Position numbers and translations under genes: made by a program. Shown in pieces: positions 14,252-55,475 of a stretch of 64,000 nucleotides of DNA (the first letter of the stretch is position 1; each line of letters starts with the position of its first letter). This stretch comes from an uncultured Microbulbifer sp. GTDB taxonomy: Bacteria; Pseudomonadota; Gammaproteobacteria; Pseudomonadales; Cellvibrionaceae. Under the pieces are notes generated by a model, which was given only the letters and a program-made list of their open reading frames with translations, did no database searches and had not been told where the DNA came from. The stretch covers positions 62,001-126,000 of the forward strand of contig NZ_CANMKV010000008.1 of assembly GCF_947498635.1 (NCBI RefSeq), in the 5' to 3' direction.

Positions 14252-14280
14252 AAAAAGGAGGCATTAGGCCTCCTTTTTTT
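14252..14280 (+). terminator. rho-independent terminator of sspA-sspB
   Basis: The stem AAAAAGGAGGC / GCCTCCTTTTTT has a 5-base loop and a long T-run. It marks the left edge of the accessory block. Confidence 0.9.
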
Positions 14281-14670
14281 CTTCTGTATCACTGGCCTGA
14301 GCCTGTATGTCCAGTTGGGGCCTATATTTCATCCCGTATTGCCTGGACTATTTTTCCTTCTCCTTCTCCTTCTCTCATTAAATTCATACTCTAGCTTTTT
14401 CACAGCTAAGCAATGTACCGACTAATTTTTCCTCTCTCAGAAATCTCAATTCAGTGATCGTATTTTGACGCTAATTTTACTTTTAGATTTTTCAGGTGTT
14501 GCCTGATACAGCCTGCGGTTTGAACGTTGAAATGCCTAAGTAAGGGGCTGCTGTCATTAAAGGGATTTTCGAGACGCAATGCCGATCAGAGCCACTGAAG
14601 GCGCTTCTGTAAAATTAGCTTATCAAATTGAAAGCGCGGACGGCTTTGCTGTGGAGCTGGTAATAAATAG
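14281..14670. other. non-coding stretch at the left edge of the accessory block
   Basis: About 390 bases without a supported gene. A pyrimidine-rich run of CTTCTC repeats lies near 14350-14375. A plus-strand frame starting at 14579 runs into the antisense strand of the OmpA-like gene and has no family character. No attachment-site-like repeat or mobile element remnant was recognised. Confidence 0.4.
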
Positions 14671-14701
14671 AAAAAAGCCACGGATATTTAATGTCCGTGG
14701 C
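14671..14701 (-). terminator. terminator of the minus-strand envelope operon
   Basis: On the minus strand the perfect 8-bp stem GCCACGGA / TCCGTGGC has a 9-base loop and is followed by TTTTTT. It lies 56 bases beyond the stop of the OmpA-like lipoprotein gene. Confidence 0.85.
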
Positions 14702-14756
14702 AAAGGGTCGAAGGATGGAGGCCTTCGGGGCTACCTTGGGGGGGTAGCGGGGAGGA

Positions 14757-15569
14757 TTAATTCATGCTGGCAACGGTCGGAGATTCATAGGCTTCGTTTT
14801 TGCCCAGTAATACAACTTCTACACGGCGGTTATGCTGTCGGCCTGCGAGAGTATCGTTACTGGCCACGGGGTTCGATTCGCCATAACCTTTAACGCTAAT
14901 ACGGTCGCTTGCAACACCGGAATTGATCAGAACATTTTGGATCGACCGCGCGCGTTTTTTGGATAATTCCAAATTATATGCTTCGCTGCCTAGAGAATCG
15001 GTATAACCTTCAATAACCGCTTTGGTATTCTCATGTGCGCTCAAGAAATCAGCTAATTTCTTCACTGTGGGTTTGGCACCGGGTTGCAGCTCGTGGTCGT
15101 CAAAGGCGAAGAGTACGTCACCAAGAGTTAGCACATTAGTATCTGCATTTTGTTTGCTTCCCATTTTTTCGAGCTCTTTTTTCAGCATCTTGAGCTCCTG
15201 CTGATTCTGGGCCAGCTCTGAATTCTTATCTTGCAGTACTAGACCTGCACGCACCATATCGGCATTTTCAAACTGAGCTTCCATCTTGGCAATATCAACT
15301 TCGTATTTTGCAACGCCCAGCATTTTTTGCGCCAAGTAAACTTGATGCTCCATATCGGTTTCATTGCCTTCCTGCCATGCCGTTTTGGCTTCACTCACGC
15401 TATCACCCGCAGCTCTGAGCGGCACTGTCGCATGGCGATTAACCAGATCATTACGGCTCATAGCCTGGTACTGATCTTCAACCTCGGCGAGAGGTTTTGG
15501 CATTTCTGTGGTGGCACAGCCGCTGACTACTGCAGTGGCGATGCCAAGAGCGATTAACGACTTATTCAT
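14757..15569 (-). CDS. OmpA-family lipoprotein with DUF4398-type N-terminal region
   Basis: A 270-residue predicted outer membrane lipoprotein. The signal MNKSLIALGIATAVVSGC ends in a lipobox, with Cys at residue 18. A helical region resembling DUF4398 follows (RNDLVNRHATVPLRAAGDSV, AKTAWQEGNETDMEHQVYLA), then a coiled coil rich in Gln, Lys and Glu. The C-terminal OmpA domain binds peptidoglycan: LGDVLFAFDDHELQPGAKPT, VIEGYTDSLGSEAYNLELSK, RISVKGYGESNPVA and RQHNRRVEVVL are its standard blocks. The start is at ATG 15569 with AGGA upstream; a longer frame would overlap the preceding gene. It is the last gene of the operon that starts at 16637 or 15987. Confidence 0.87.
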   Translation of the reverse strand: MNKSLIALGIATAVVSGCATTEMPKPLAEVEDQYQAMSRNDLVNRHATVPLRAAGDSVSEAKTAWQEGNETDMEHQVYLAQKMLGVAKYEVDIAKMEAQFENADMVRAGLVLQDKNSELAQNQQELKMLKKELEKMGSKQNADTNVLTLGDVLFAFDDHELQPGAKPTVKKLADFLSAHENTKAVIEGYTDSLGSEAYNLELSKKRARSIQNVLINSGVASDRISVKGYGESNPVASNDTLAGRQHNRRVEVVLLGKNEAYESPTVASMN

Positions 15570-15627
15570 GGTCAAATCCTGTATTTTAAATGGCAAATGT
15601 GGGCGTAGTTTGCGAAGGGTGATTAGA

Positions 15628-15987
15628 TTAAGAGTCCTGATCGATTGTCTGCTTGAGCTGAATGAGGGTTGCATTCAATTCATAAAGTTTTTGCTTGGTG
15701 GATTCGGAGCGGGCCTGTGCGCTGGCGAGCTTGGCATCGGCTGTGGCTTTCTCTGCAAACCTGCGTGCCTTATTAAATTCACTCTTGTCTACAGCAGTCT
15801 GTGCCTTTCCCAGGTGCTCTTTTGCCGTAGTCAAGTGTTGAGCGGCAAACTGTTCACTTTTGTCTGCTTCAGCCGTGGAGATATGTATTTTTGCTTCTGC
15901 AATCTCATTTGTGGGCATGTTTCCGGTGGCACAGCCTGAAATTGCAGTGACCAGTACCAGACTGCCAAATAGCTTTGTTGACTTCAT
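15628..15987 (-). CDS. DUF4398-type small lipoprotein
   Basis: A 119-residue protein with a lipoprotein signal (MKSTKLFGSLVLVTAISGC, Cys at 19). The rest is one helical unit rich in Ala, Lys and Glu (NEIAEAKIHISTAEADKSEQ, HLTTAKEHLGKAQTAVDKSE, RRFAEKATADAKLASAQARS), the pattern of DUF4398. It shares this pattern with the first half of the next gene, so the pair may have arisen by duplication, with fusion of an OmpA domain to one copy. GGAGAAGGAA lies just before the ATG. The exact role is unknown; a periplasmic, outer membrane-anchored location is likely. Confidence 0.82.
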   Translation of the reverse strand: MKSTKLFGSLVLVTAISGCATGNMPTNEIAEAKIHISTAEADKSEQFAAQHLTTAKEHLGKAQTAVDKSEFNKARRFAEKATADAKLASAQARSESTKQKLYELNATLIQLKQTIDQDS

Positions 15988-16070
15988 TTCCTTCTCCTTC
16001 TGTAGTGGATAGAGAGTTCGCTAGAGAAGGTACATCCCTGTACCTCTCTGGCTAAATATTTACCGGGTCC

Positions 16071-16637
16071 TTAAAAAGCGAATTGCAGAGAAGCGGAGGC
16101 GACATCAAGTTTTGGTTCGATATCATCTTCAATTTCGAAGCGCTCATACTCTAAACGCAGGTCAAGGTTCTCAAGCAGACCAACTTTTACACCAGCGCCA
16201 TAGAACCAGTCGCCACCGTCCATATCTTCAGAAACCCCACCGAGTACAGGCAGGTCAGCCTTCACTTCAGCATTCCAGGTAAACCAGCCACCTTTTACAT
16301 ACACAGATGCGCGCTCATGGATGGGGGCAGACAAAATACCGGCGAAGGTAAAACCATCAATTTCAGCATTGGTGTCGAAGTCGTTGGCTTCGTCGAAGTT
16401 TAAGTAAGCGACTTCGGCACCGAGGTATTCATTCAGTTTGATACCACCAAAAATTTTCACGACTTCAGATTTTTCATCGAATTCCGTTTCTTCGTCATCC
16501 CATTTAACGGAGTACTGGCCGTAGCCGCCGCCTACAAAGAACTCTGATTCCGAGCGATCAAAGATATCCTGTGCCATAGCTTGACCAGTAAGGCCAGTGG
16601 TCATTGCAATTGCAGCGATTAGTTTTCCGTAGTTCAT
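16071..16637 (-). CDS. OmpA-like outer membrane beta-barrel protein
   Basis: A 188-residue protein with a signal peptide (MNYGKLIAAIAMTTGLTGQAMA) and a mature part of alternating strands: EFFVGGGYGQYSVKWD, KIFGGIKLNEYLGAEVAYLN, FTFAGILSAP, SVYVKGGWFTWNAEV, WFYGAGVKVGLLENLDLRLE. It ends in aromatic FAF, the usual C-terminal signal for outer membrane insertion. It belongs to the 8-stranded OmpA/opacity type of barrel. ATG 16637 has GAGGA about 8 bases upstream. A sigma-54-type promoter lies about 110 bases upstream. It may be cotranscribed with the two lipoprotein genes downstream; the 83-base gap holds a GGTACA/TGTACC hairpin but no T-run. Confidence 0.85.
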   Translation of the reverse strand: MNYGKLIAAIAMTTGLTGQAMAQDIFDRSESEFFVGGGYGQYSVKWDDEETEFDEKSEVVKIFGGIKLNEYLGAEVAYLNFDEANDFDTNAEIDGFTFAGILSAPIHERASVYVKGGWFTWNAEVKADLPVLGGVSEDMDGGDWFYGAGVKVGLLENLDLRLEYERFEIEDDIEPKLDVASASLQFAF

Positions 16638-16746
16638 GATAGTAATCCTCATGTGAAAATATTTTGTTACTTCTCGGTATTTTCTCTTGGGAGTAAAACC
16701 GAATTCAGTTTCGAATCTCTAAGCTGTGAAGCTTGTTGTTGATGGT

Positions 16747-16762
16747 TGCAACCGGTATGCCA
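16747..16762 (-). promoter_or_regulatory. sigma-54 promoter for the beta-barrel/lipoprotein operon
   Basis: On the minus strand the sequence reads TGGCATACCGGTTGCA, which fits the consensus TGGCAYR-N4-TTGCA at every defined position, with GG and GC at the required spacing. Transcription would start near 16735, giving a leader of about 100 bases before ATG 16637. It faces away from the second sigma-54-type site at 17049. Confidence 0.75.
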
Positions 16763-17048
16763 ACTTTTTTGCATGGGGAAGAAAAATATTTCAAAAGTGT
16801 GTCTAAGCCGCATGGGTGCTGAGTTTTTTTGGGGGCAGGTACTGTTGAGATTTTTTAATATCGGTCAATAACTGATGGCTTCCAGGGGTGTTCTTACGGT
16901 GTAGGAATGTTTTTGGTATGTAAAAATTGCAAAGAGTTCTATTTCTGTTTTGTAAAAATTTATACAAAGTGCAATTTGACGTTGGGTATTTAAAAGAACA
17001 ATGCCCATTTCGCACCTATAAAGAAGGGAGAGATGTCAAAGTAGAAGT
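16763..17048. promoter_or_regulatory. shared upstream region of the divergent sigma-54 promoters, with TGTAAAAATT repeats
   Basis: This 286-base AT-rich region lies between two outward-facing sigma-54-type promoters and has no supported gene. The 10-mer TGTAAAAATT occurs at 16919-16928 and 16951-16960, 32 bases apart, about three helical turns. The second copy continues into TATACAAA, giving a TTTGTA/TACAAA inverted repeat. AAATTGCA (16924-16931) and TGCAATTT (about 16970-16977) form another inverted pair. Enhancer sites of NtrC-type activators usually sit 80-150 bases upstream of such promoters, so this is a plausible binding region. No site has been proven. Confidence 0.5.
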
Positions 17049-17064
17049 TGGCATGCTAACTGCA
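17049..17064 (+). promoter_or_regulatory. sigma-54 promoter for the DUF883 operon
   Basis: TGGCATGCTAACTGCA fits TGGCAYR-N4-TTGCA except that the first T of the -12 element is C; the GG and GC pairs are in place. Transcription would start near 17075, about 25 bases before ATG 17101. Confidence 0.7.
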
Positions 17065-17100
17065 GGTTCACTAATGAACTTTGCAAACTAGGAGATTCTC

Positions 17101-17445
17101 ATGGCTACAGCAGCTAACTCAAAAACAAACTCAAGCCGCGGTAATAAAAGTGCAGTTGGTAAGGATGCGGTGCAGGAAGAGGTTCTTTTATCCGAAATGG
17201 CGAGAGAGAAAGCCCACTCGGCGGTAGACAGCGTCTCTGATAAAGCGGCTGCTACGGAAGAAAAGATCCGTGAATCTGCAGCGCAATCATCTGAGTCACT
17301 CTCGCAAAAGCAGGAGCAGATCAAGCAGACCGCTAGCCAGACCCGTTCAGACATAGAAGGCTTTGCGAAAAAAAATCCATGGGCTGCTGCGGGTATTGCG
17401 TTCGCTACAGGTGCGATTGTCAGCGCACTAATTCGTCGTCGCTAA
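17101..17445 (+). CDS. DUF883 family (YqjD/ElaB-like) membrane-anchored protein
   Basis: A 114-residue protein with a hydrophilic helical body (MAREKAHSAVDSVSDKAAAT, SSESLSQKQEQIKQTASQTR) and a single C-terminal membrane segment (NPWAAAGIAFATGAIVSALI) followed by RRR. This is the layout of the YqjD/ElaB family, which in E. coli is stationary-phase induced and tethers ribosomes to the inner membrane. AGGAG lies 6 bases before the ATG. It is the first gene after the sigma-54-type promoter, with the holin-like gene 3 bases downstream, like yqjD-yqjE in E. coli. Confidence 0.85.
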   Translation: MATAANSKTNSSRGNKSAVGKDAVQEEVLLSEMAREKAHSAVDSVSDKAAATEEKIRESAAQSSESLSQKQEQIKQTASQTRSDIEGFAKKNPWAAAGIAFATGAIVSALIRRR

Positions 17446-17448
17446 TTT

Positions 17449-17883
17449 ATGTCGGACGTTGAAAATACTCAGCAATGCGACTCCGGGGTAGAGGGCTCTG
17501 GCGAAGCGTCGGATTGGCAGCGTCTGGGCGTGAGCGCCCAGGCGCTGCTGTCAGCATTGCAGCAAGTGGCCGGCGGGCGCTTGGCATTGATCGGCGCGCA
17601 GTGGCGACTCAGTCTTGTTGCTATCTCGCTGTCACTTGTCATGTTGGTCAGCCTTGGCTGTGTCATCGCATTAAGTTGGTTTGCTATTTCCCTCGGGGCA
17701 GGTTTTGCCATTTGGAAATTTCTTGATCACTGGCTCTGGGCACTTTTCGTGGTGCTGTGTATGCAGCTATTGGCCGTATTTTTATTATGGAAGCAAAGTC
17801 GACGCCTGTTACAGTTGATTTCCATTGACCTGAATATCTTTGAAAGTGAGGCTTCTGGTGCTGGATCTCCTGCTAAAGAATGA
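17449..17883 (+). CDS. phage holin family (YqjE-like) membrane protein
   Basis: A 144-residue protein with two long membrane helices (about residues 55-85, LVAISLSLVMLVSLGCVIAL, and 95-118, HWLWALFVVLCMQLLAVFLL) and short charged ends. The pattern and position match YqjE (putative Actinobacteriophage holin superfamily 3), the partner of YqjD. It starts 3 bases after the DUF883 gene and overlaps the next gene by about 26 bases. Confidence 0.78.
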   Translation: MSDVENTQQCDSGVEGSGEASDWQRLGVSAQALLSALQQVAGGRLALIGAQWRLSLVAISLSLVMLVSLGCVIALSWFAISLGAGFAIWKFLDHWLWALFVVLCMQLLAVFLLWKQSRRLLQLISIDLNIFESEASGAGSPAKE

Positions 17884-18196
17884 GAAGGCTGCTGTGCGGG
17901 CAGCACGCAAAACTGAGCGAGAAGGTCTAGTAAGTGCCAAAGCGGCCCTAGATTCACTTAAGACTTACTCCGCCAAAGTTGCTGTACAGCCAGTCAGTTT
18001 GGCGGCCATGGTTGCAGCTGGATTTATTTCGGACAGGGCTTTTGCCGATGTAGGGAAGCAAAGACTTAAAGTCCTGCTTTCAGGGCTCAGTTACAGTGCC
18101 CTCGCAGAGTATGGTTTTCAGTTTTGGTCGGACTATGCCGATGAAAAACCCGGTGAAGATAAAACTTCCGGCGAGGCAGAAGCCTCTCAGATTTGA
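17858..18196 (+). CDS. small hypothetical protein, third gene of the yqjD-yqjE-like operon
   Basis: A protein of about 112 residues that is not clearly recognised. The first part is charged and helical (LLLKNEKAAVRAARKTEREG), and the middle holds one or two weak hydrophobic segments (PVSLAAMVAAGFISDRAFAD). It occupies the place of yqjK in enterobacteria, but similarity was not seen. There is no ATG start. GTG 17858 is preferred because GTGAGG lies 6 bases upstream; TTG 17840 and GTG 17846 are alternatives. The overlap with the previous gene suggests translational coupling. Confidence 0.65.
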   Translation: MLDLLLKNEKAAVRAARKTEREGLVSAKAALDSLKTYSAKVAVQPVSLAAMVAAGFISDRAFADVGKQRLKVLLSGLSYSALAEYGFQFWSDYADEKPGEDKTSGEAEASQI

Positions 18197-18313
18197 CCAC
18201 TCCCCAAGTCTAATAAAATCTCAGATGCAACTGCATTGTTGTGAGCGAGTGCCGGTCACCTTGAGGGATGGGGCAACTTGCACTTTTAATATTCAAGTAC
18301 GGCAGATACCCGA

Positions 18314-19450
18314 GTGAATGCACAAGACAGCCCTGAACAAGAATCAATACAAGCACCTAAAATGAGCAGTGAATCTAGGAGCCATCGTCAGTTTAAGATC
18401 CTAGCTACTTGTGCGGTCATCCTGACCGCCCTGGCAATTATCGCAGCCCTTTACCTAGGGCGTACGATTCTTTTGCCTTTTACCCTCGCATGGATGAGTT
18501 CGCTGCTGCTCTCACCCCTCGTGCGCTGGACATCTCAAAAGGGCATACCCAACCCTATTTCAGCGGGGTTTTTGGTTCTGTTTGCCGTATCCATGTTATT
18601 TCTCGCTGTGCGTTTGCTGGCGGAGCCCGCTAGCGAATGGGTAGAAAGTTGGCCGCAAAAAACGGCAGAGGTACAGGAAAAACTCAATATGGTGCAAAAA
18701 CCCTTAGTCGATTTGCGTAAGGCGGGTGACGAGGTGGTGAAGCTCGGTAAGTCAAACGATGAAAGTCATGTAACGGTATCGGTAAAGCAGGAAAGCTGGC
18801 TGAAAAGTATTGTTACGGATGATATTCCAACTTTGTCTGGTCAGGCGTTAATGATTATTGTTCTGACCTTTTTCCTGCTTTCAAGCCGCGGAAGTATTGC
18901 TCGGCACATTGGCCAGTTTGGCCGTGACTTCAGTGGGCGCCGACATCTTATGGGCATTGCTACCCAGGTGAGAAGGCAAATCTCAACCTACCTAAACACG
19001 ATCGCATTAGTGAACTTGGCATTGGCGATTGTTACGTCACTAGTCTTATGGGCTCTGAACTTTCCCAATCCCTTTCTATGGGGATGCCTGGCAGGCCTTT
19101 TGAATTTTGCCCCCTATGTAGGGCCTTTGATTACTGTTTCTTTGCTCTCAATCGTTGGCTTGGTTTCTTACGATACACTCTGGGCAGGCCTGCTGGCGCC
19201 AGCGGCATTTATGGGAATTACAATGCTCGAAGGGCAATTGATCACCCCCTCAGTGGTTGGGCAAAGATTGAAACTATCGCCCATCTCAGTTTTTTTGGCA
19301 GTAATTTTTTGGACTTGGATCTGGGGTGTCGGCGGAGCTTTGATGGCAGCGCCAATTCTGGCTTGTCTGAAAATATTTCATGAAAACCTCTTCCCCGCTC
19401 CACCAAGAGCTGAATCGAAAGAAGAAGCGTTGAGGCCCTTAGCACTATAG
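18314..19450 (+). CDS. AI-2E family transporter (PerM/YdiK/TqsA-like)
   Basis: A 378-residue inner membrane protein. Predicted helices come in the family order: a pair near 30-90 (FKILATCAVILTALAIIAAL, then LPFTLAWMSSLLLSPLVRW), a hydrophilic helical region at about 100-170, then helices from 175 onward. Family hallmarks include ALNFPNPFLWGCLAGLLNFA-PYVGP near residues 250-272 and EGQLITPSVVGQRLKLSP near 308. Members export autoinducer-2 or small solutes; the substrate here is unknown. GTG 18314 is used, ATG 18362 is possible. The stop codon region overlaps the convergent hybrid kinase gene by 6 bases. Confidence 0.88.
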   Translation: MNAQDSPEQESIQAPKMSSESRSHRQFKILATCAVILTALAIIAALYLGRTILLPFTLAWMSSLLLSPLVRWTSQKGIPNPISAGFLVLFAVSMLFLAVRLLAEPASEWVESWPQKTAEVQEKLNMVQKPLVDLRKAGDEVVKLGKSNDESHVTVSVKQESWLKSIVTDDIPTLSGQALMIIVLTFFLLSSRGSIARHIGQFGRDFSGRRHLMGIATQVRRQISTYLNTIALVNLALAIVTSLVLWALNFPNPFLWGCLAGLLNFAPYVGPLITVSLLSIVGLVSYDTLWAGLLAPAAFMGITMLEGQLITPSVVGQRLKLSPISVFLAVIFWTWIWGVGGALMAAPILACLKIFHENLFPAPPRAESKEEALRPLAL

Positions 19451-21346
19451 CTGGGCCAGCTTGATAAGGTCATAGGGTTTGCTGAGGATGCCGTCGAACC
19501 CCGATTCAGTGAGCTTATCAGAATTCGGACTTTCGCCTGTGGCGGCGAGTAATCGCCCCGTGTAAGACAGTTTGCGGATTCTTTTGGCAAGCGTGAAACC
19601 ATCCATATCTGGAAGGTTAATATCCATTAATATCAGATTTGGCTGGTAGGTTGCGAAGAGTTCCAGGGCTGATTGGGCATCGCCACAGGCTTTAGCTTCC
19701 CAGCCTAAAGCGATGAGTAGTTGCTGTGTCGCACTGCGCGCATCTTCATCGTCCTCAACCAGAATCAGCTTTTTATTGATTGCAGGGGCTGGCAGGTGCT
19801 TAGTAAGAAGATCAAATAACTGATCTGGCTGCACTGGCTTGCCTAAGTGATCGGTACAGCCGGCATCCAGGCAGCGTTGGCGTTCGCCGAGCATCGTCTG
19901 AGCTGTGAGCGCAATGACCGGCGTTTCGAACCCTAGCATGCGTAGCTCTTGAGTGGCGGTAAGACCGTCCATAACGGGCATCTGCACATCCATTACGACT
20001 AAATCAAAGGGTTTGCCATTATTGCGGGCCGCTAGTAATAGATTGATTGCCTCCTGGCCATTCGCTGCTTGTTGGACGTTACAACCTGCGCTTTCAAGCA
20101 AGTGGGCTACCAGTTCGCGAATTTCCCTGAGATCGTCTGTAATCAATACCTGCCCAGACAGGCTTGGGGTCTGGATATGCACCGCAGAAGAGGGTTGCTG
20201 AATATCCCAGGTCTGATACTGGTATTGCGCAGGGTGCTTGCACTCTAATGTCAGGGTGAAACAGCTGCCCGATCCCTCCTCGCTGTGCAAAGAGATTTTC
20301 CCTCCCAACAGCTGGGCTAACTGCCGGCTGATGGCCAGCCCCAGGCCCGACCCGAGTTCGGAACGGTGGGCACCGCCGTGGGCCTGGACAAAGGGGGTGA
20401 ACAGTTTTTCCTGTTCGGCGGGAGGGATACCAATGCCGGTATCGATGACACGAAAGCGTAGCTGGCAACTGTGTTCAAGTCGAGTCGCGTCAACTTCGAG
20501 GCGGACTTCACCGGTATCGGTAAATTTCACAGCGTTGCTGAGGAAGTTCAGTAGAATCTGTCGCAAGCGGATTGTATCCGTGATGATCTGCGATGGGAGT
20601 TCTGTCTGAATATCAATACTAAAGCGGATCCCCTTATCTTCCGCCTTAATTGCGATTAATTGATAGAGCTCGGCAAGAAAGCCGGGGAGGGCCAGTTCGC
20701 TGAATTGCACCTCCAGGCGACCCGCTTCGATTTTGGATAAATCGAGTACATCGTTCAAGAGGCTCAACAAATGATAGCCGTTACGCTTGATAATACTTAA
20801 GTGATCGAGCTGTTGCTGGCCCTTGTGATTTTGTAGGAGAAGGTCGGTATAGCCCAATATAGAAGTTAAAGGCGTGCGCAATTCATGGCTCAAATGCGCG
20901 AGGAACTCGCTCTTGGATTTGTTCTCGGCTTCCGCTTTGAGACGCTCCAAGCGCTCCCGCTCCATATCCCTACGTGATACTGCGTAGCGGATAGCCCGAC
21001 TCAATCGGGCTGCGGTAAGTTGGGTTTTGACCAAATAATCGACTGCGCCTGCAGAGAGGGCTTCGGCATCCAGGGTGCTATCGTCATGGCCTGTGAGCAT
21101 GATGATAGGGGCATCGAAACCCTGGCGTCGCGCCTCAGCGAGAATCTGCAGGCCAGTAAATGCACCCAGAGAGTAATCGAGTAGGCATACATCAAAATTA
21201 TTAGAGGCAAAGTATTTGTGGGCCTCCTCCGGCGAGCGTGCCCACTCGATCTGGTAGCCCTCAGGGTCTATATCCTGAAGAAGATCTTTCGCGATAATAA
21301 AATCATCTTCGTCATCTTCTACCAGAAGTAATCTGGTGACGCCCAT
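19445..21346 (-). CDS. hybrid sensor histidine kinase with three receiver domains (REC-HisKA-HATPase-REC-REC)
   Basis: A 633-residue cytosolic signalling protein with no membrane segment. Order: receiver 1 (residues 4-120, phospho-acceptor Asp57), a coiled linker, HisKA with His154 in HLSHELRTPL, ATPase domain with N-box NFLSNAVKF (267-275), DTGIGI (302-307) and GSGLGL (332-337), receiver 2 (about 398-515, Asp453), receiver 3 (about 526-633, Asp575). All key residues are present. The N-terminal receiver suggests that it is itself controlled by phosphorylation, perhaps by the kinase two genes upstream. It is the last gene of the five-gene operon starting at 24937; it starts 52 bases after the single-domain regulator. 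Confidence 0.92.
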   Translation of the reverse strand: MGVTRLLLVEDDEDDFIIAKDLLQDIDPEGYQIEWARSPEEAHKYFASNNFDVCLLDYSLGAFTGLQILAEARRQGFDAPIIMLTGHDDSTLDAEALSAGAVDYLVKTQLTAARLSRAIRYAVSRRDMERERLERLKAEAENKSKSEFLAHLSHELRTPLTSILGYTDLLLQNHKGQQQLDHLSIIKRNGYHLLSLLNDVLDLSKIEAGRLEVQFSELALPGFLAELYQLIAIKAEDKGIRFSIDIQTELPSQIITDTIRLRQILLNFLSNAVKFTDTGEVRLEVDATRLEHSCQLRFRVIDTGIGIPPAEQEKLFTPFVQAHGGAHRSELGSGLGLAISRQLAQLLGGKISLHSEEGSGSCFTLTLECKHPAQYQYQTWDIQQPSSAVHIQTPSLSGQVLITDDLREIRELVAHLLESAGCNVQQAANGQEAINLLLAARNNGKPFDLVVMDVQMPVMDGLTATQELRMLGFETPVIALTAQTMLGERQRCLDAGCTDHLGKPVQPDQLFDLLTKHLPAPAINKKLILVEDDEDARSATQQLLIALGWEAKACGDAQSALELFATYQPNLILMDINLPDMDGFTLAKRIRKLSYTGRLLAATGESPNSDKLTESGFDGILSKPYDLIKLAQL

Positions 21347-21398
21347 CTTAAAACTCTACCTTGCTGTTTATCTTATCGAAACTTATATCGGGGAACTA

Positions 21399-21860
21399 CT
21401 ACTGATAGCTGCGTTGCTTACCAGGGAATTCAACAAATTCGACCCAATAACGCCCCAGTGAGCGCATCAATTCCACCAGGTCTTCAAAAGTTACAGGCTT
21501 GGATAGATAGGAGGCCGCGCCAAGGTCGTAGGATTTGAACATGTCCTCTTCGGCCTTGGAGGTTGTGAGAATGACGACTGGAATACGTCGTAAATTGGGG
21601 TCTGCTTTTATCGCTGCCAGAGCTTGTCGACCATCCATGCGAGGCATATTTAAATCGAGCAGAATCAAGTCGGGCAGATGCTCATTAGCCAGATGTTCAA
21701 ATTCGCCTTCTCGCTTTAGGTAGGACAGCAACTCGGCACCATCGCTAACGATGGAGAGTTCGCTTTTTACGAGGCTTTCTTCGAGAGCCTCTCGGGTGAG
21801 CAATTGATCATCCTTGTCATCGTCTGCGAGGACGATGCTGATGGATTTACTTGCTTGCAT
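21399..21860 (-). CDS. single-domain response regulator (Rcp1-like)
   Basis: A 153-residue protein that is a single receiver domain with a short tail. Seen: acidic pocket ADDDKDD near 12-18, phospho-acceptor Asp69 in LILLDLNMPRMDG, Thr in ILTTSK near 99, and Lys in YLSKPVTFEDL near 121. The insert LKREGEFEHLANEHLPD before the active Asp is typical of regulators encoded next to phytochrome-like kinases (Rcp1 type). There is no output domain, so it acts by phosphotransfer or protein binding. It begins 11 bases after the sensor kinase gene. Confidence 0.92.
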   Translation of the reverse strand: MQASKSISIVLADDDKDDQLLTREALEESLVKSELSIVSDGAELLSYLKREGEFEHLANEHLPDLILLDLNMPRMDGRQALAAIKADPNLRRIPVVILTTSKAEEDMFKSYDLGAASYLSKPVTFEDLVELMRSLGRYWVEFVEFPGKQRSYQ

Positions 21861-21871
21861 AAATTGTTCTC

Positions 21872-23428
21872 TTAAAGGTTGAGACCTTGCTGTGACTGCG
21901 CACTCGTATCGAGCAAGCGAGGTTCAGAATCATTGTATTCCACTTGTACCGGCGGGTTTTCCGGTATCAGCAGTTCAAAGGTTGCCCCTTCACCTGGTGC
22001 GCTGGCAGCGTGAATTTCGCCGCAGTGGCGCTCCAGTATTCTTCTACAAATCGCAAGGCCAATACCTGTACCTTCATACTCATTGCGACCATGCAATCGC
22101 TGAAAGGCTGAAAACACTTTGTCGACAAACTGCTCGTCAAAGCCAATTCCATTGTCACTAACAGTGATGCGATAGCCTGGTACCTTGGTGTCCACATGGG
22201 AAATTTCTGTTTTCTCACATTGGATCCGAATAATTGGCGGGCATTCGGGTTTGATAAATTTAAGCGCATTACCGATCAAGTTGAGAAACAGTTGGGCCAT
22301 CTGCGTCGGATCAGCATGGATCGTTGGTAGAGGCTGAATGTCAATTTGTGCGTTGGTTTCTTCGCGCTTAATTTGTAGGTCATCCAGTACTTCTTCGACC
22401 ACAAGATTGAGGTCGACTGTCTCAAAAGGTGTCGTTCGTGTAGAAACACGGGAGAAGGCGAGCAGATCTTCAATCAGCTTGGACATTCTTTTTGCAGCAC
22501 TTTGCATACGCTCCACATAGTCCTTGCCGTCGCCTAGTTTTTCGCTATACCGAGCCGTTAGCCGGTCGCCAAATGCACGAATCTTACGCAGCGGCTCTTG
22601 CAGGTCATGGGAGGCGACAAAAGCAAAGTTTTGCAGCTCGCGGTTACTGCGTGTTAATTCCTGTGAGTACAATTCCAATTCCTGGGTTCGCTCCGTGACC
22701 CTCAGTTCCAGAAGTTGTGCATATTCGTTTTGTTGCCGCATCGACCGGTTGGTAAGCATGGCGATGACCAAAATTAAGCCTATACCCAGGCAGTTGGCGA
22801 ATAAAACGGCACGCGTAACCTCTCGGCGTCGGAGGGCGGAATCATCCATTAGCGATTGAATGTGCTGGAATTCTTCCTCTTCGATGGTGCTGATAAACTG
22901 TGAGAGCATCTCCAGAGTCTTGTGGCTAGCCTCCATCGTTCGCGCAAGACTTTTCACTTCGCGCTTATCTTGGGCGGCGTTAAAATCTGTTACAAGCTGT
23001 GAGCTTTGGTTGCTATCAGCAGGCGTCGTCACGGTGTCAATTGCTCGGTAATGACTGCTTAGCAGCCGCTCGAGTTCGTCAAAACGAAATGCCGACTTGG
23101 GGATTTTGGTATTTTGAGCTTGCAGTTCGTTGACCAGTTCTGAGGCGTGAGCAACTGCGGCCTCATACTTGGTAAAGTTTGCAGCATTTTCGTTTTGTTT
23201 GAATTCACGCAACTGGAGTTCGGCGGTATGCACGGCAAAATAAGTATCGCTGGCCAGCTGAAGGATATCTTTAATCTCACCGGAGCGTGCCGCATTTTCC
23301 CCGAGCTCATTCAGGTTGCGGTAGGTATAATAGCTGTTTGCTGCAAAAAGGAGGCATAGTCCCAGGATCAAAGCCGACCAGAAATAACGCAGCTTGGACG
23401 GTTTGCTATCCATGATCATGCGGCTCAC
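21872..23428 (-). CDS. membrane sensor histidine kinase with periplasmic helical sensor
   Basis: A 518-residue kinase. TM1 is at about 15-32 and TM2 at about 207-225, enclosing a mostly helical periplasmic part of about 170 residues that resembles a CHASE3-type sensor. After a coiled coil comes HisKA with His274 in FVASHDLQEPLRKI, then N-box LIGNALKF (384-391), DNGIGF (425-430) and GTGIGL (453-458). The SHDLQEPLRK H-box is the type found in phytochrome-like kinases and fits the Rcp1-like regulator encoded next. Start choice: GTG 23428 (AGAGG 9-10 bases upstream), ATG 23419 or ATG 23413; all overlap the end of the 63-residue gene, indicating coupling. Confidence 0.9.
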   Translation of the reverse strand: MSRMIMDSKPSKLRYFWSALILGLCLLFAANSYYTYRNLNELGENAARSGEIKDILQLASDTYFAVHTAELQLREFKQNENAANFTKYEAAVAHASELVNELQAQNTKIPKSAFRFDELERLLSSHYRAIDTVTTPADSNQSSQLVTDFNAAQDKREVKSLARTMEASHKTLEMLSQFISTIEEEEFQHIQSLMDDSALRRREVTRAVLFANCLGIGLILVIAMLTNRSMRQQNEYAQLLELRVTERTQELELYSQELTRSNRELQNFAFVASHDLQEPLRKIRAFGDRLTARYSEKLGDGKDYVERMQSAAKRMSKLIEDLLAFSRVSTRTTPFETVDLNLVVEEVLDDLQIKREETNAQIDIQPLPTIHADPTQMAQLFLNLIGNALKFIKPECPPIIRIQCEKTEISHVDTKVPGYRITVSDNGIGFDEQFVDKVFSAFQRLHGRNEYEGTGIGLAICRRILERHCGEIHAASAPGEGATFELLIPENPPVQVEYNDSEPRLLDTSAQSQQGLNL

Positions 23429-23597
23429 TATCCAGTACCTCTGCGCAGCTTCGACAGCTTTCGGTGACTTTTTCCAGGCTGACCAGGATTTTTTCAGCAG
23501 GCGCTTGCTGGCTTATCTGCAGTTTGGCCAGCTCCGCATTCATGGCAATGTTGTTCATCAAATTACGCAGCTTGTGATGAATATCTTGTTTGGTCAT
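23406..23597 (-). CDS. 63-residue protein resembling a lone histidine-kinase DHp/H-box domain
   Basis: A small gene whose ATG overlaps the stop of the NtrC-type regulator gene (ATGA, 4 bases) and whose end overlaps the start of the sensor kinase gene; this tight coupling supports it as real. The protein reads as two helices: DIHHKLRNLMNNIAMNAELA and then ILVSLEKVTESCRSCAEVLD. The first matches the spacing of the phospho-acceptor helix in kinases of the AHDFNNLLxxIxGNAEL type (His, then Asn at +4, NAEL at the end), and the second the return helix. No ATP-binding domain follows. His7 or His8 is the candidate acceptor. It could be a phosphotransfer intermediate or a regulator of kinase pairing. 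Function is inferred only. Confidence 0.72.
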   Translation of the reverse strand: MTKQDIHHKLRNLMNNIAMNAELAKLQISQQAPAEKILVSLEKVTESCRSCAEVLDSEPHDHG

Positions 23598-24937
23598 GAC
23601 TCACTCTGCTTGTACTGATTGAGACGGTTGTAAAGCGTTTTTAAGCTAATCCCAAGCATATCGGCGGCTTGCTTCTTATTGCCATCTACCGCTTCTAAGG
23701 TATTCGCGATCAAGCGTTTTTCCATGGCCTCGATGGTCGTGCCCGCCTGTAGATTACTGGAAGAGTCTGAGCTCTGTGTCTGTTCCGTAGTTGTGGCGGA
23801 ACGCCCAAAAGGAGAGCCCAGTTGTGGAGGGAGACTGAGGGTATTCTGATTGCGGTCAGACAGAATAAATGCGCGGTGTAAGGTATGGCGCAATTCTCGC
23901 ACGTTGCCTGGCCAGTCGTAACTCTGCAACGACGCCAATATTTTGTCATCCAGAGCGTAGGCGGTTGCGTACTCTTCGTTCATCTGATCGATAAATGACT
24001 GGGCCAGTAGGGGGATGTCTTGTTTTCGATCCCTCAAGGGTGGCAGCTGCAAAGGGAACACCGCGAGGCGAAAATAGATATCCTCACGTAGATGGCCGCC
24101 ATCGGCAATATTTTCATTGCTGCGGTTGGTTGCGGATACTACCCGGCAGGAGACATCTAACTCTGTGGTACCCCCCAGCCTGGTTACCTTACCGGTCTCG
24201 AGCACCCTCAGTAGGTTAGGTTGCTGATCGATCGGCATTTCAGTCACTTCATCTAGGAAGAGGGTGCCTTCATTGGCGCGCTCGAACAGGCCGGGCTTAC
24301 GCGCTACCGCACCGGTAAAAGCCCCCTTTTCGTGACCAAATAATTCGCTACCGATCAACTCCGCGGAGATGGCCCCGCAGTTGGCTGCTACGAGAGGGCC
24401 TTGTGCGGCAGAAGCATTGTGGACCGCCTGGGCGACCAGCTCCTTACCTGTACCACTTTCTCCCTGGATCAACACATTGGCTTGGGTTTGCGCGACTTTG
24501 CCGATCATATCGTAAAGAGCTTGCATGGCTGGAGACTCACCGACTAAAACACCAAAGTGCCGTTCATACGTTGCCGGTGCCGATTCCCTTTTCCGCAGTA
24601 GCAAATCTTGCAGCTGCTGGATTTCAATCGGTTTAACCAGATAAGTCATGTTCGGACCGGCCAGGTGATCCACCATGGATCTGATGGCGCTATGCCCAGT
24701 GACAAAAGCGACTTTATCGGGGGTTCGATCGAGGGGGAGGGCGTCCAACACATCAAAGCCGCTGCCTTCAGGAAGCATTAGGTCAAGCAAAAGCGTGTGG
24801 TAGCGATTGCGGGCCAAGTAACTGCGGGCTTCGCTTACCCTGTCAGCCACATCTACCGCAAATCCCATATTTTCAATTAGGGGGGAAACTGCGCTCGTGA
24901 AATCTTTGTCGTCATCTACCAATAATACCCGTTGCAA
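23594..24937 (-). CDS. NtrC-family sigma-54-dependent response regulator
   Basis: A 447-residue transcription activator. The receiver covers residues 1-115 with phospho-acceptor Asp52. The AAA+ domain follows from about 130 with Walker A GESGTGKE (159-166), the sigma-54 contact loop GAFTGA (205-210) and Walker B GTLFLDEVTEM (224-234). A Fis-type helix-turn-helix lies at the C-terminus (IEAMEKRLIANTLEAVDGNK, QAADMLGISLKTLYNRL). All elements required for opening sigma-54 promoters are present. It is the first gene of the signalling operon. Sigma-54-type promoters flank the operon on both sides, making these the obvious targets. Confidence 0.95.
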   Translation of the reverse strand: MQRVLLVDDDKDFTSAVSPLIENMGFAVDVADRVSEARSYLARNRYHTLLLDLMLPEGSGFDVLDALPLDRTPDKVAFVTGHSAIRSMVDHLAGPNMTYLVKPIEIQQLQDLLLRKRESAPATYERHFGVLVGESPAMQALYDMIGKVAQTQANVLIQGESGTGKELVAQAVHNASAAQGPLVAANCGAISAELIGSELFGHEKGAFTGAVARKPGLFERANEGTLFLDEVTEMPIDQQPNLLRVLETGKVTRLGGTTELDVSCRVVSATNRSNENIADGGHLREDIYFRLAVFPLQLPPLRDRKQDIPLLAQSFIDQMNEEYATAYALDDKILASLQSYDWPGNVRELRHTLHRAFILSDRNQNTLSLPPQLGSPFGRSATTTEQTQSSDSSSNLQAGTTIEAMEKRLIANTLEAVDGNKKQAADMLGISLKTLYNRLNQYKQSES

Positions 24938-25282
24938 AGTCCCAACTCCTATCGATTAGGGATTAAATAAAGGCAACGTAGTTTGCGGTGATTGCAGAGC
25001 GTGCCGCAAGCAGTTGATACAAAAAATCGTCATCTTGAGAGGAATGTCTAGATTGGGATGAAATTTACGAACTCAACCCCTGGGCTCGAAGTTTTATTTA
25101 AAGCGAGTTTTTGGGTTTCTGATCGGATTGGGCTTGTATTCTGAGACTTTGCGGTGAAGCACTGCAGTGCCAACAATGACATGTCTTGGCGGTTAAGCGA
25201 AAACCTGAGGGAGGGGTGCTGGAAGGATTGCGGGGCTGCCGACAGCGATAGCTTGTCGGCGAGCGCCACTTAGACCAATCGA
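24938..25282. promoter_or_regulatory. upstream region of the signalling operon
   Basis: This 345-base gap lies between the activator gene and the end of the small lipoprotein gene. It holds a perfect 12-bp palindrome, GCACTGCAGTGC, at 25159-25170, which overlaps a minus-strand sequence like a sigma-54 promoter but with spacing one base too short. No clear sigma-70 promoter was found. A minus-strand frame at 25048-25269 has no family character. Confidence 0.4.
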
Positions 25283-25474
25283 TTAGCAGTTGGTATCTTT
25301 AGCTTGCACGCCTTCTTTTACTTCTTCACAGGCGTCCTCAACACTGTTGCCAATTTTATCGGCTGTCTGATCTACAGACTCACCCAGCTCCTCAGCAGGG
25401 CCTTCGTTAATATCGCAAGCGGCCAGGGCAAAAACGGAGAGCATGATTGAAAAAATCAGGGTCAACTTGGTCAT
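25283..25474 (-). CDS. small lipoprotein, entericidin-like in size
   Basis: A 63-residue protein with a lipoprotein signal MTKLTLIFSIMLSVFALAAC (Cys at residue 20). The short acidic mature part contains GESVDQTADKIGNSVEDACE and ends in NC. Similar small, helical, envelope-anchored proteins are common among stress genes; the family is not firmly identified. ATG 25474 is used because GAGGA lies about 9 bases upstream, whereas the upstream start adds residues before the signal. A sigma-54-like site (imperfect) lies about 100 bases upstream. Confidence 0.75.
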   Translation of the reverse strand: MTKLTLIFSIMLSVFALAACDINEGPAEELGESVDQTADKIGNSVEDACEEVKEGVQAKDTNC

Positions 25475-25569
25475 TTTGTAAGTCCTCATTCTTAGTAGTT
25501 ACATTTCAACTTTATTGCTAGAAAACTATTCTGTAAAAAATCAATTTTCTGCATTTACATAAAATGTTA

Positions 25570-25585
25570 TTCAAGGAGTGTGCCA
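25570..25585 (-). promoter_or_regulatory. possible sigma-54 promoter for the small lipoprotein gene
   Basis: On the minus strand the sequence reads TGGCACACTCCTTGAA. The -24 element is perfect, but the -12 element has TTGAA instead of TTGCA. The distance to the ATG at 25474 is about 100 bases, as at the beta-barrel gene. Confidence 0.45.
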
Positions 25586-25661
25586 ACTTTGTGGGATGCA
25601 GTGATTCTGCGCGGTTGCGCTGGATTCTCTCGTTTTGGCTGTGGGTAATAGTTGCCCATAC

Positions 25662-25671
25662 TGTAAAAATT
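25662..25671 (+). repeat. TGTAAAAATT repeat, candidate activator site
   Basis: The third exact copy of the 10-mer found twice in the other divergent region. It lies 76 bases upstream of the plus-strand sigma-54 site and 76 bases upstream of the minus-strand one, within the usual enhancer range for both. AT-rich words recur by chance, so this is suggestive only. Confidence 0.4.
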
Positions 25672-25746
25672 GGCTGGCAATTGGGCTTGAAATTGTAATA
25701 GCTACAAAAAACCTTCGAAATTTAGCAAAAATACTTGGAAATTCGT

Positions 25747-25762
25747 TGGCATGGGGATTGCA
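25747..25762 (+). promoter_or_regulatory. sigma-54 promoter for the DUF1328-PLDc_N operon
   Basis: TGGCATGGGGATTGCA fits TGGCAYR-N4-TTGCA at all defined positions with correct spacing. Transcription would start near 25773, leaving a leader of about 130 bases before ATG 25905. Confidence 0.75.
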
Positions 25763-25904
25763 AATTACCCATTGTCAAAGGAGGGCGGTGCTGAATCTGC
25801 TCACTAAAACACAGGAACGCTCAATTTTATAAAAGTTGAGTGGAGTGTTTTACCAGTTGAGGTCATAAATTTATTGTTTGCTAGAAAGAGAGTAGGGGTC
25901 TCCT

Positions 25905-26084
25905 ATGCTCATTTGGGTTAATACCTTTTTAGTGCTGTCAATTATTGCCGGGATTATAGGTTTCTCTGGCTTTGCCAGCGGCTCTCTTGATTTTGCGAAG
26001 GTGCTGTTTGCGGTATTTGCGTTACTGTATGTAATTTCGCTGGCAGCACATTTTATGACGAAGCGTGAACCCCCGGCCGATTAA
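25905..26084 (+). CDS. DUF1328 family (YtjA-like) small membrane protein
   Basis: A 59-residue protein made of two membrane helices: MLIWVNTFLVLSIIAGIIGF and then LFAVFALLYVISLAAHF, joined by the Gly/Ser-rich GFSGFASGSLDFAK. This is the layout of DUF1328/YtjA. The molecular role of the family is unknown, but members often sit among stress genes. ATG 25905 follows a weak GGGG ribosome binding site. The PLDc_N gene follows after 35 bases. Confidence 0.85.
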   Translation: MLIWVNTFLVLSIIAGIIGFSGFASGSLDFAKVLFAVFALLYVISLAAHFMTKREPPAD

Positions 26085-26119
26085 CTCGTTTTTGCCAGTA
26101 TTAAAAAGAAGGAAGAAAC

Positions 26120-26308
26120 ATGGATATTCAAGTAGGTGGCATATTAGGTTTTCTGATTTTGGTTGCTGATATTTGGGCCATTTTAAATATTGTGCAGTCG
26201 GGGAGTAGTACGGGTTCGAAGTTGATCTGGATTCTACTCGTCTTGTTTTTGCCGGTGATCGGTTTGATTTTATGGTTCCTTTTGGGTCCCAAGAGTGCCA
26301 GGGCTTAA
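26120..26308 (+). CDS. PLDc_N domain small membrane protein
   Basis: A 62-residue protein with two helices: GGILGFLILVADIWAILNIV and LIWILLVLFLPVIGLILWFL, ending in LGPKSARA. The motif with W, P-x-IG-x-I-x-WF-LLG-PK is that of the phospholipase D-nuclease N-terminal domain (PLDc_N) found alone in many small proteins. No nuclease domain follows. AAGGAAGAAA precedes the ATG. A strong terminator 52 bases after the stop closes the two-gene operon. Confidence 0.85.
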   Translation: MDIQVGGILGFLILVADIWAILNIVQSGSSTGSKLIWILLVLFLPVIGLILWFLLGPKSARA

Positions 26309-26360
26309 TTTTAGAGGCTTTTGGTAGTTTTTTCAGAAGGTTTTGATGGACCTTATTGCT

Positions 26361-26394
26361 GCGTCGCAGCTCTTTCTAGAGCTGCGACGCTTTT
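26361..26394 (+). terminator. terminator of the DUF1328-PLDc_N operon
   Basis: A perfect 13-bp stem, GCGTCGCAGCTCT / AGAGCTGCGACGC, has a 4-base loop and is followed by TTTT. Confidence 0.85.
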
Positions 26395-26667
26395 CATCCT
26401 CTAATCGCCGTGGCATCTCCCTAGGTATTTGGGCGTATATTCTTCCTCGGAGTGGCGAGGTATCGGCCCTGATCTTAAGATGATGACAAGGCTTCCGGGT
26501 GGCAGCCAGAGCCCATAGGCATTCGCCTGCAGAGCCTACCTGCCTGTGTGCCCAGGCTTGATATAAGTCAACCTGATTTGAAAGTGGCGCTTAATTTCTT
26601 ATTCGCATTGGTTAATTCCGCGCCGGCCCCCGATACTGCAAAGCAGGGTATAAAAGGGAGCATTAGC

Positions 26668-55313: not shown

Positions 55314-55475
55314 CAACTATTCTTCCCTTACGCGTAATTGCTGGCAGCTTGGCATAGGAGTTGCCAGCGCTTGCGCCTTCCTGTTTACTTGCACCCCTCG
55401 CATAAAGGAGTGTCGGTGCGATATCTGCCCAGCATTAGCGCCGACAGCGCACATAAGATAAGTGGTTTCTAGATA

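Follow-up and report, generated by a model that had tools for sequence, protein, structure and literature searches.

The question raised by this locus is whether a small phosphorelay operon controls the envelope genes on both of its sides, and by which route phosphate would reach its activator. The locus lies in a 64-kb stretch of DNA (the window), positions 62001-126000 of contig 8 in the 4.52-Mb genome of an uncultured Microbulbifer sp. It contains five genes coding for a sigma-54 activator (here s54RR), a 63-aa H-box protein, a membrane sensor kinase, a single-domain receiver and a hybrid kinase. Genes for small membrane proteins, lipoproteins and an outer membrane barrel flank these five genes. 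We consider the block probably to be a sigma-54 regulon of envelope genes, controlled by a phosphorelay of its own through the H-box protein, with a probability of about 0.68.

The relay operon and its conserved residues

The relay genes are all on the minus strand and run from s54RR (start at 24937) to the hybrid kinase (end at 19445). s54RR (23594..24937) is an NtrC-type activator with Pfam matches to Response_reg, Sigma54_activat and HTH_8. It has the parts of a bacterial enhancer-binding protein, namely a receiver (REC), an AAA+ domain with a literal GAFTGA and Walker A/B motifs, and a Fis-type helix-turn-helix. Its stop overlaps by 4 bases the start of the H-box gene (23406..23597), which codes for a stand-alone HisKA/DHp-like hairpin, the proposed phosphotransferase. 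The H-box gene overlaps by 23 bases the membrane sensor histidine kinase gene (21872..23428), which is followed after 11 bases by the single-domain receiver (21399..21860) and after a further 52 bases by the hybrid kinase (19445..21346). Pfam identified the membrane kinase and the receiver, and gave three Response_reg, one HisKA and one HATPase_c match for the hybrid kinase, arranged REC-HisKA-HATPase-REC-REC. A CHASE3 domain was found in the membrane-kinase homologues of Gilvimarinus agarilyticus (L031, Cellvibrionaceae) and Paraglaciecola marina (L032, Alteromonadaceae); Pfam did not detect it in the window copy.

Residues were compared across 53 loci. Thirteen were the close loci first mapped (8 genera, some nearly identical), and 40 were picked by the activator alone (E ≤ 1e-120) from 40 of 47 genomes unused before. 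The receiver Asp and Walker A/B residues of s54RR were intact in 52/52 aligned homologues (L188 did not align), and GAFTGA was exact in 50/52. The Asp of the single-domain receiver was intact in 50/50 (L169, L172 and L182 left out), as were the His and N-box Asn of the membrane kinase (50/50; L172, L176 and L182 left out). In the hybrid kinase, the His and the Asp residues of REC2 and REC3 were intact in 51/51 and the REC1 Asp in 49/51, the other two being gaps (L172 and L182 left out). The scanned proteins of the block yielded no Hpt domain. With the kinase and receiver residues intact and no Hpt domain among these proteins, we propose that phosphate passes from the hybrid kinase and receivers to the H-box protein and then to s54RR.

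s54RR was also compared with named NtrC-type equivalogs of NCBIfam. It scored 339.8 against AtoC (cut-off 714), 337.7 against NtrC (cut-off 558.6) and 308.9 against LuxO (cut-off 800), and these assignments were rejected. Among the 25 of 107 matches listed, no named equivalog (AtoC, NtrC, LuxO, ZraR, PEP-CTERM regulator and others) was above its cut-off.

Sigma-54 sites and palindromes between divergent genes

Two divergent gene pairs flank the relay: the barrel gene (-) with a DUF883 gene (+), and an entericidin-like gene (-) with a DUF1328 gene (+). Two sigma-54 sites and a single predicted palindrome lie between the genes of each pair. All four sites follow the -24/-12 pattern GG-N10-GC, one of them with GA for GC.

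The barrel gene (16071..16652, -; OMP_b-brl, 7.5e-20) has its site at 16747..16762 (-; score 17.7), 94 bp before the start. The gene for a DUF883/YqjD-ElaB-like membrane protein (17101..17445, +) has its site at 17049..17064 (+; score 14.5), 36 bp before the start. The predicted activator palindrome of these two promoters, at 16917..16933, scored 18.1, being itself among the copies to which the matrix was fitted. It was one of two palindromes scoring at least 13 in the window. On the other side, the entericidin-like small lipoprotein gene (25283..25489, -) has the site with GA at -12 at 25570..25585 (-; score 13.3), 80 bp before the start, and the DUF1328 gene (25905..26084, +; 1.8e-9) has one at 25747..25762 (+; score 17.7), 142 bp before the start. 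Their predicted palindrome at 25692..25708 scored 16.8, again as one of the matrix-fitting copies. It is one of only two places in the genome with an exact TTGTA-N5-TACAA.

The exact sequence TTGGCAY-N5-TTGC occurs at 10 places in the genome, and two of them are the outermost of the four block sites. The window contained 9 sigma-54 sites scoring at least 13, compared with 2 in the reversed window. Genome-wide, 282 N5-spaced sites with at most one mismatch were counted, and 78 with the pattern reversed; in the N6-spacer control, the numbers were 190 and 88. A site at 15531-15546 (-; score 14.5) lies within the OmpA open reading frame (ORF) near its start and was not counted. A near-perfect site is located at 55350-55365 (+), far from the block.

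Further predicted targets follow the genes named above. Downstream of the barrel gene are a DUF4398 lipoprotein-like gene (15628..15987, -; 1e-11) and a gene for a DUF4398 plus OmpA-C protein (14757..15674, -; Pfam). The DUF883 gene (DUF883_C, 2.3e-5, below the curated cut-off) is followed by a YqjE-like membrane protein gene (17449..17883, +) and by g3 (17861..18196, +), an ORF of uncertain start codon that is conserved in L111 and L154. The window copy of the YqjE-like protein had no Pfam match; the L031 and L032 proteins at this place gave weak Phage_holin_3_6 matches. A gene for an AI-2E-type membrane protein (18314..19450, +; 2.2e-43) comes next and is possibly read through from DUF883. 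Behind DUF1328 is the gene for a PLDc_N membrane peptide (26120..26308, +; 6.3e-13). The entericidin-like and YqjE-like proteins of the window had no convincing Pfam or NCBIfam match and were labelled by look; homologues of the entericidin-like gene recur beside the relay.

A preliminary description of this DNA had proposed an operon of these five parts, its position between two sets of sigma-54-type promoters, and a target set of small membrane proteins, lipoproteins and a barrel. All three were borne out: the five genes were Pfam-backed, the H-box gene weakly so against HisKA, the four promoter sites were located, and Pfam identified the target families apart from g3 and the two labels given by look, DUF883_C falling below its cut-off.

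Promoter motifs across loci

In the 13 mapped loci, a sigma-54 site scoring at least 12 was present within 300 bp before 34/74 target-family genes. The same threshold was passed before 4/83 other ORFs and 1/74 reversed targets. The dyad TGTA-N5-TACA was present in 10/32 upstream stretches, compared with 0.37 in shuffles. A palindrome matrix (score at least 8) matched 27/32 of its own fitting stretches versus 4/79 controls, which is circular. When one genus at a time was left out, random-seed matrices matched 16/32 held-out stretches versus 5/80 controls at a score of at least 8. Dyad-seed matrices matched 14/32 versus 9/80 at this score, and 9/32 versus 3/80 at a score of at least 10.

The matrices were then frozen and applied to the 40 new loci as an out-of-sample test. 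Sigma-54 sites scoring at least 12 preceded 53/155 target-family genes versus 25/321 other genes (Fisher 3.6e-12), and 3/155 reversed targets. The palindrome TTTGTAA-N3-TTACAAA (score at least 10) was present at 34/48 target sigma-54 sites versus 16/296 ORFs without a sigma-54 site. When the test was confined to operon leaders and one locus per genus (21 genera), which leaves shared ancestry above the genus in place, sigma-54 sites were found at 26/63 versus 16/175 and the palindrome at 17/26 versus 13/159.

Near the cassette, pairs of a sigma-54 site and a palindrome also preceded genes for DUF2383, hemerythrin and phosphatase/diacylglycerol-kinase proteins (L163, L164, L173, L180, L191, L195, L196, L198, L199 and L200). 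Pfam was run on L163, L180, L195 and L196; the remaining loci were labelled by look. From their upstream sequences, these genes are likely extra regulon members. ExoD was a further predicted target, with a weaker palindrome. Together, these predicted targets suggest a wider stress role.

Distribution and co-inheritance

The five-gene order was identical in 13/13 of the loci first mapped. The cassette recurred in Gilvimarinus, Paraglaciecola and other gammaproteobacterial genomes beside varying sets of the same envelope-gene families. In all 40 further loci, the H-box gene adjoined the activator. Among the 53 loci, the receiver was not found in three, the membrane kinase in three and the hybrid kinase in two; L172 and L182 had the activator and the H-box gene and no relay kinase within the fetched stretch.

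In the order, activator homologues at E ≤ 1e-95 were present in 15/390 genomes, and 11 of these also had an H-box profile match below 1e-20. The genomes with such an H-box match (11/390) were exactly those with an activator match at E ≤ 1e-135. The six weaker H-box profile matches listed (E 1.5e-7 to 8.2e-4) were in longer open frames of 312-1403 codons. In the class sample, activator homologues at E ≤ 1e-95 were present in 7/369 genomes including the own genome, and among the other six, only G753 had the cassette. At E ≤ 1e-120, the activator was found in 37/144 genomes of the family (13/32 genera) and in 19/345 of the order of G753.

Within the own genus, 3/48 genomes gave a strong DUF883 match and 8 more a weak one; the activator was present in the same 3. 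Yip1 was present in 48/48. The whole block lies between Yip1 and SspB in the window and in G790, and G013 has the same order as far as its fetched stretch reaches, which is short of SspB. In 8/8 fetched block-free genomes (of 45; L155-L162, chosen as best Yip1 matches), the genes after Yip1 were a GGDEF-like gene and SspB. The block is thus shared as a whole or has a GGDEF-like gene in its place, indicating that relay and targets were gained or lost together, as far as fetched. The G+C content of 14261-26540 was 48.5%, compared with 54.7% in the remaining window.

The search for co-occurrence that the preliminary description had called for thus showed that, in many genomes, the relay is accompanied by the same families of targets. 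Its proposal that the relay switches on its neighbours held in part: the unit is co-inherited and the target promoters share a sigma-54 site and a palindrome out of sample, and the switching itself is predicted from sequence.

The H-box protein family

The window H-box protein matched HisKA weakly (E 0.0065, below the curated cut-off), and 12/13 family members matched HisKA (best 5.5e-7). The Hpt family was absent among the 17 families listed for the 13 members scanned by sequence. The predicted structure was a helical hairpin (3-29/34-56; predicted local distance difference test, pLDDT, 91.6), and the His is on its first helix in the model, as in HisKA/DHp domains. The ORFs were 64-102 codons from stop to stop. 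A histidine kinase was rejected as an assignment, since no HATPase match was obtained and 63 aa are too short for a catalytic domain. A ChpT/Spo0B-type protein was also rejected, since no ATPase-like domain follows the hairpin.

The His, the Arg at +3, the Asn at +7 and a later Glu were invariant in 53/53 sequences. HisKA kinases depend on the acid next to the His for kinase activity and on a T/N position for phosphatase activity (PMC3510030). The position of the acid, H+1, was acidic in 40/53 and is Lys in the window copy. The phosphatase position, H+4, was Asn in 33/53 including the window, and Lys, Gly, Ala or Ser in 20/53. The kinase and phosphatase positions are loosened and the His is fixed, which points to phosphate carriage by the H-box protein.

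The second Cys of a CxxC motif (C51) was present in 52/53 sequences and the full motif in 42/53. In L146, L184-L187, L192, L193, L196, L197 and L200, which are part of the order of G753, the first Cys was replaced by Ala, Ser or Thr and the second was kept. In L180, the second Cys was missing instead. By reasoning from the hairpin geometry of the model, C51 and the phospho-acceptor His should be separated by about one helical turn.

The H-box proteins are a small family with a near-invariant Cys, and they are the new part of the system. No description of such a family was listed in the literature searches made. A bolder proposal is that they form a new, unusually small phosphotransferase class in which a DHp hairpin by itself serves a single sigma-54 activator, and in which C51 gates transfer by redox state or metal binding and thereby integrates envelope signals and redox at the carrier. 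We regard this as unlikely.

Proposed mechanism and alternative explanations

In the proposed mechanism, both kinases would autophosphorylate, the hybrid one and the membrane one, whose homologues are of the CHASE3 type. Receiver domains would hand the phosphate to the H-box protein, which is presumably dimeric and consists of a DHp hairpin without a kinase domain. Its invariant His would take up the phosphate, and the protein would then donate it to the Asp in the s54RR receiver. In its phosphorylated form, s54RR would bind TTTGTAA-N3-TTACAAA between the divergent promoters and open sigma-54 polymerase at both. The products would be the barrel, the lipoproteins, and the DUF883/YqjE-like and DUF1328/PLDc_N membrane peptides. 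We infer the flow and direction of the phosphate and the DNA binding by s54RR. The stimulus would be envelope or osmotic stress, a label given by analogy and resting on target homology.

Several results weigh against this mechanism. The palindrome motif was re-found in 5/8 random-seed and 6/8 dyad-seed leave-one-genus-out runs; two dyad-seed runs gave poly-T, and with the window's own genus held out, neither kind of seed recovered the motif. A random-seed run over all 32 upstream stretches converged on a different motif. Over the own genome, the strict palindrome showed no enrichment: with at most one mismatch it occurred at 80 places, and the reversed pattern at 92. In the 40 test loci, the palindrome was also present at 11/25 sigma-54-positive non-target ORFs, which are either further targets or a sign of weak specificity. 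A target promoter passing both thresholds was found in 23/40 test loci and was missing from 17/40. Sigma-54 sites preceded only 7/31 entericidin-like, 1/16 MscS and 0/4 OmpA/DUF4398 genes of the test set, and the AI-2E gene had a site of its own in 0/6 and 0/16 copies examined, the latter being the test set. Within 300 bp before s54RR, a sigma-54 site was found in 5/53 loci only, indicating that autoregulation of s54RR is not general. Finally, fold comparison did not distinguish a DHp hairpin from other helical hairpins.

The route of the phosphate could differ from that proposed. Under plain two-component control, the membrane kinase would phosphorylate s54RR directly and the H-box protein would be a remnant or a passive adaptor. 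Kinase and activator do share an operon, and the H-box protein has no catalytic domain; its window copy gives a low HisKA score. However, its four invariant residues are kept in all 53 sequences, it persists where relay kinases were not found, and the conserved receivers of the hybrid kinase imply a relay, so we consider direct control quite improbable. A slightly better case, though still an unlikely one, can be made for a negative H-box protein that drains s54RR as a phosphatase or phosphate sink. The Asn at H+4, the HisKA phosphatase position (PMC3510030), would fit such a role, and VanU represses the VanO-activated qrr genes, which is an example of a phosphotransferase opposing a sigma-54 regulator (PMC3352281). 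This explanation is at odds with the 20/53 sequences that have Lys, Gly, Ala or Ser at H+4.

The signal and the regulator were weighed in the same way. The regulon may answer oxidative, iron or general stress and not envelope damage. DUF2383, hemerythrin and ferritin-like proteins among the predicted targets or neighbours are consistent with this, and so is the near-invariant H-box Cys. Yet the recurrent site-bearing target families are mainly membrane or exported proteins, and the Pseudomonas aeruginosa DUF883/YqjE homologues respond to envelope stress (PMC11302039). We regard this alternative as possible, and as the least improbable of the four. The sigma-54 sites could also serve another activator, with the cassette a neighbour by chance, since the genome has 7 strong sigma-54 activator domains (E ≤ 6.6e-47) including s54RR. 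The sites and the palindrome accompany the cassette across families, however, and within the genus, genomes have either both relay and targets or neither, which makes a chance neighbour very improbable.

Comparison with known systems

The mechanism of the relay with s54RR most likely resembles the hybrid kinase-LuxU-LuxO scheme, with a stand-alone HisKA/DHp hairpin as the carrier. As in the LuxU/VanU-LuxO/VanO quorum relay of Vibrio, hybrid kinases are combined with a small phosphotransferase encoded in an operon with a sigma-54 regulator (vanOU), and palindromic boxes with similar half-sites (TTGCA in Vibrio) lie upstream of -24/-12 promoters (PMC3352281). Unlike LuxU, the carrier here matches HisKA, and Hpt is not among the families listed for it. 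The box also differs: TTG(T/C)A-N5-T(A/G)CAA has two more central bases than the LuxO box TTGCA-N3-TGCAA, and the predicted targets are envelope genes and not small RNAs (PMC3352281).

The H-box protein shares a DHp-type helical hairpin bearing an H-box with the dimeric phosphotransferases ChpT and Spo0B (PMC3433190). At its C-terminus, ChpT carries an ATPase-like domain whose ATP lid is altered (PMC3433190), whereas the H-box protein is the hairpin alone, 63 aa long, and unlike ChpT and Spo0B it would feed a sigma-54 activator. On the target side, the P. aeruginosa operon PA3040-3042 also contains DUF883 and YqjE-type genes and is envelope-stress-inducible; it is controlled by the extracytoplasmic function (ECF) sigma factor AlgU (PMC11302039), whereas sigma-54 sites are predicted here. 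The general theme of sigma-54 and envelope functions is shared with an account of sigma-54 as a controller of the bacterial exterior (PMC3162934). Its main text has no occurrence of entericidin, HisKA, Alteromonas or Saccharophagus, and no description of the cassette was found in it.

If the proposed regulon is real, it would tie a phosphorelay to widespread and poorly understood envelope genes (DUF883, DUF1328, BON and YqjE-like). A HisKA hairpin alone could then replace an Hpt protein, and the cis code of palindrome and -24/-12 site would let the regulon be read in other cassette-carrying genomes. A very small presumed phosphate carrier accompanies the activator in dozens of related genomes.

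Divergent relatives of the activator and H-box protein

Longer H-box-bearing proteins were found near remote activators, one of 296 aa (L112, 11763-12653) and one of 240 aa (L148, 4265-4987, oriented). The L112 protein had no Pfam match. They may keep an ATPase-like domain after the hairpin, and they could be intermediate forms linking a kinase to the bare H-box protein. A second and divergent copy of the activator (45-47%) is present in G1052 (L183, about 11043-12500, oriented), again with an adjacent H-box gene. Remote activator relatives (45-47%) were also found in L142 and L144, near genes that look like glgC (11181-12734 in L142 and 11013-12356 in L144). Strong sigma-54 sites are located near or before the glgC-like starts (17.4 at 11197 in L142 and 16.4 at 10875 in L144), and a separate sigma-54 glycogen regulon is possible in these two loci.

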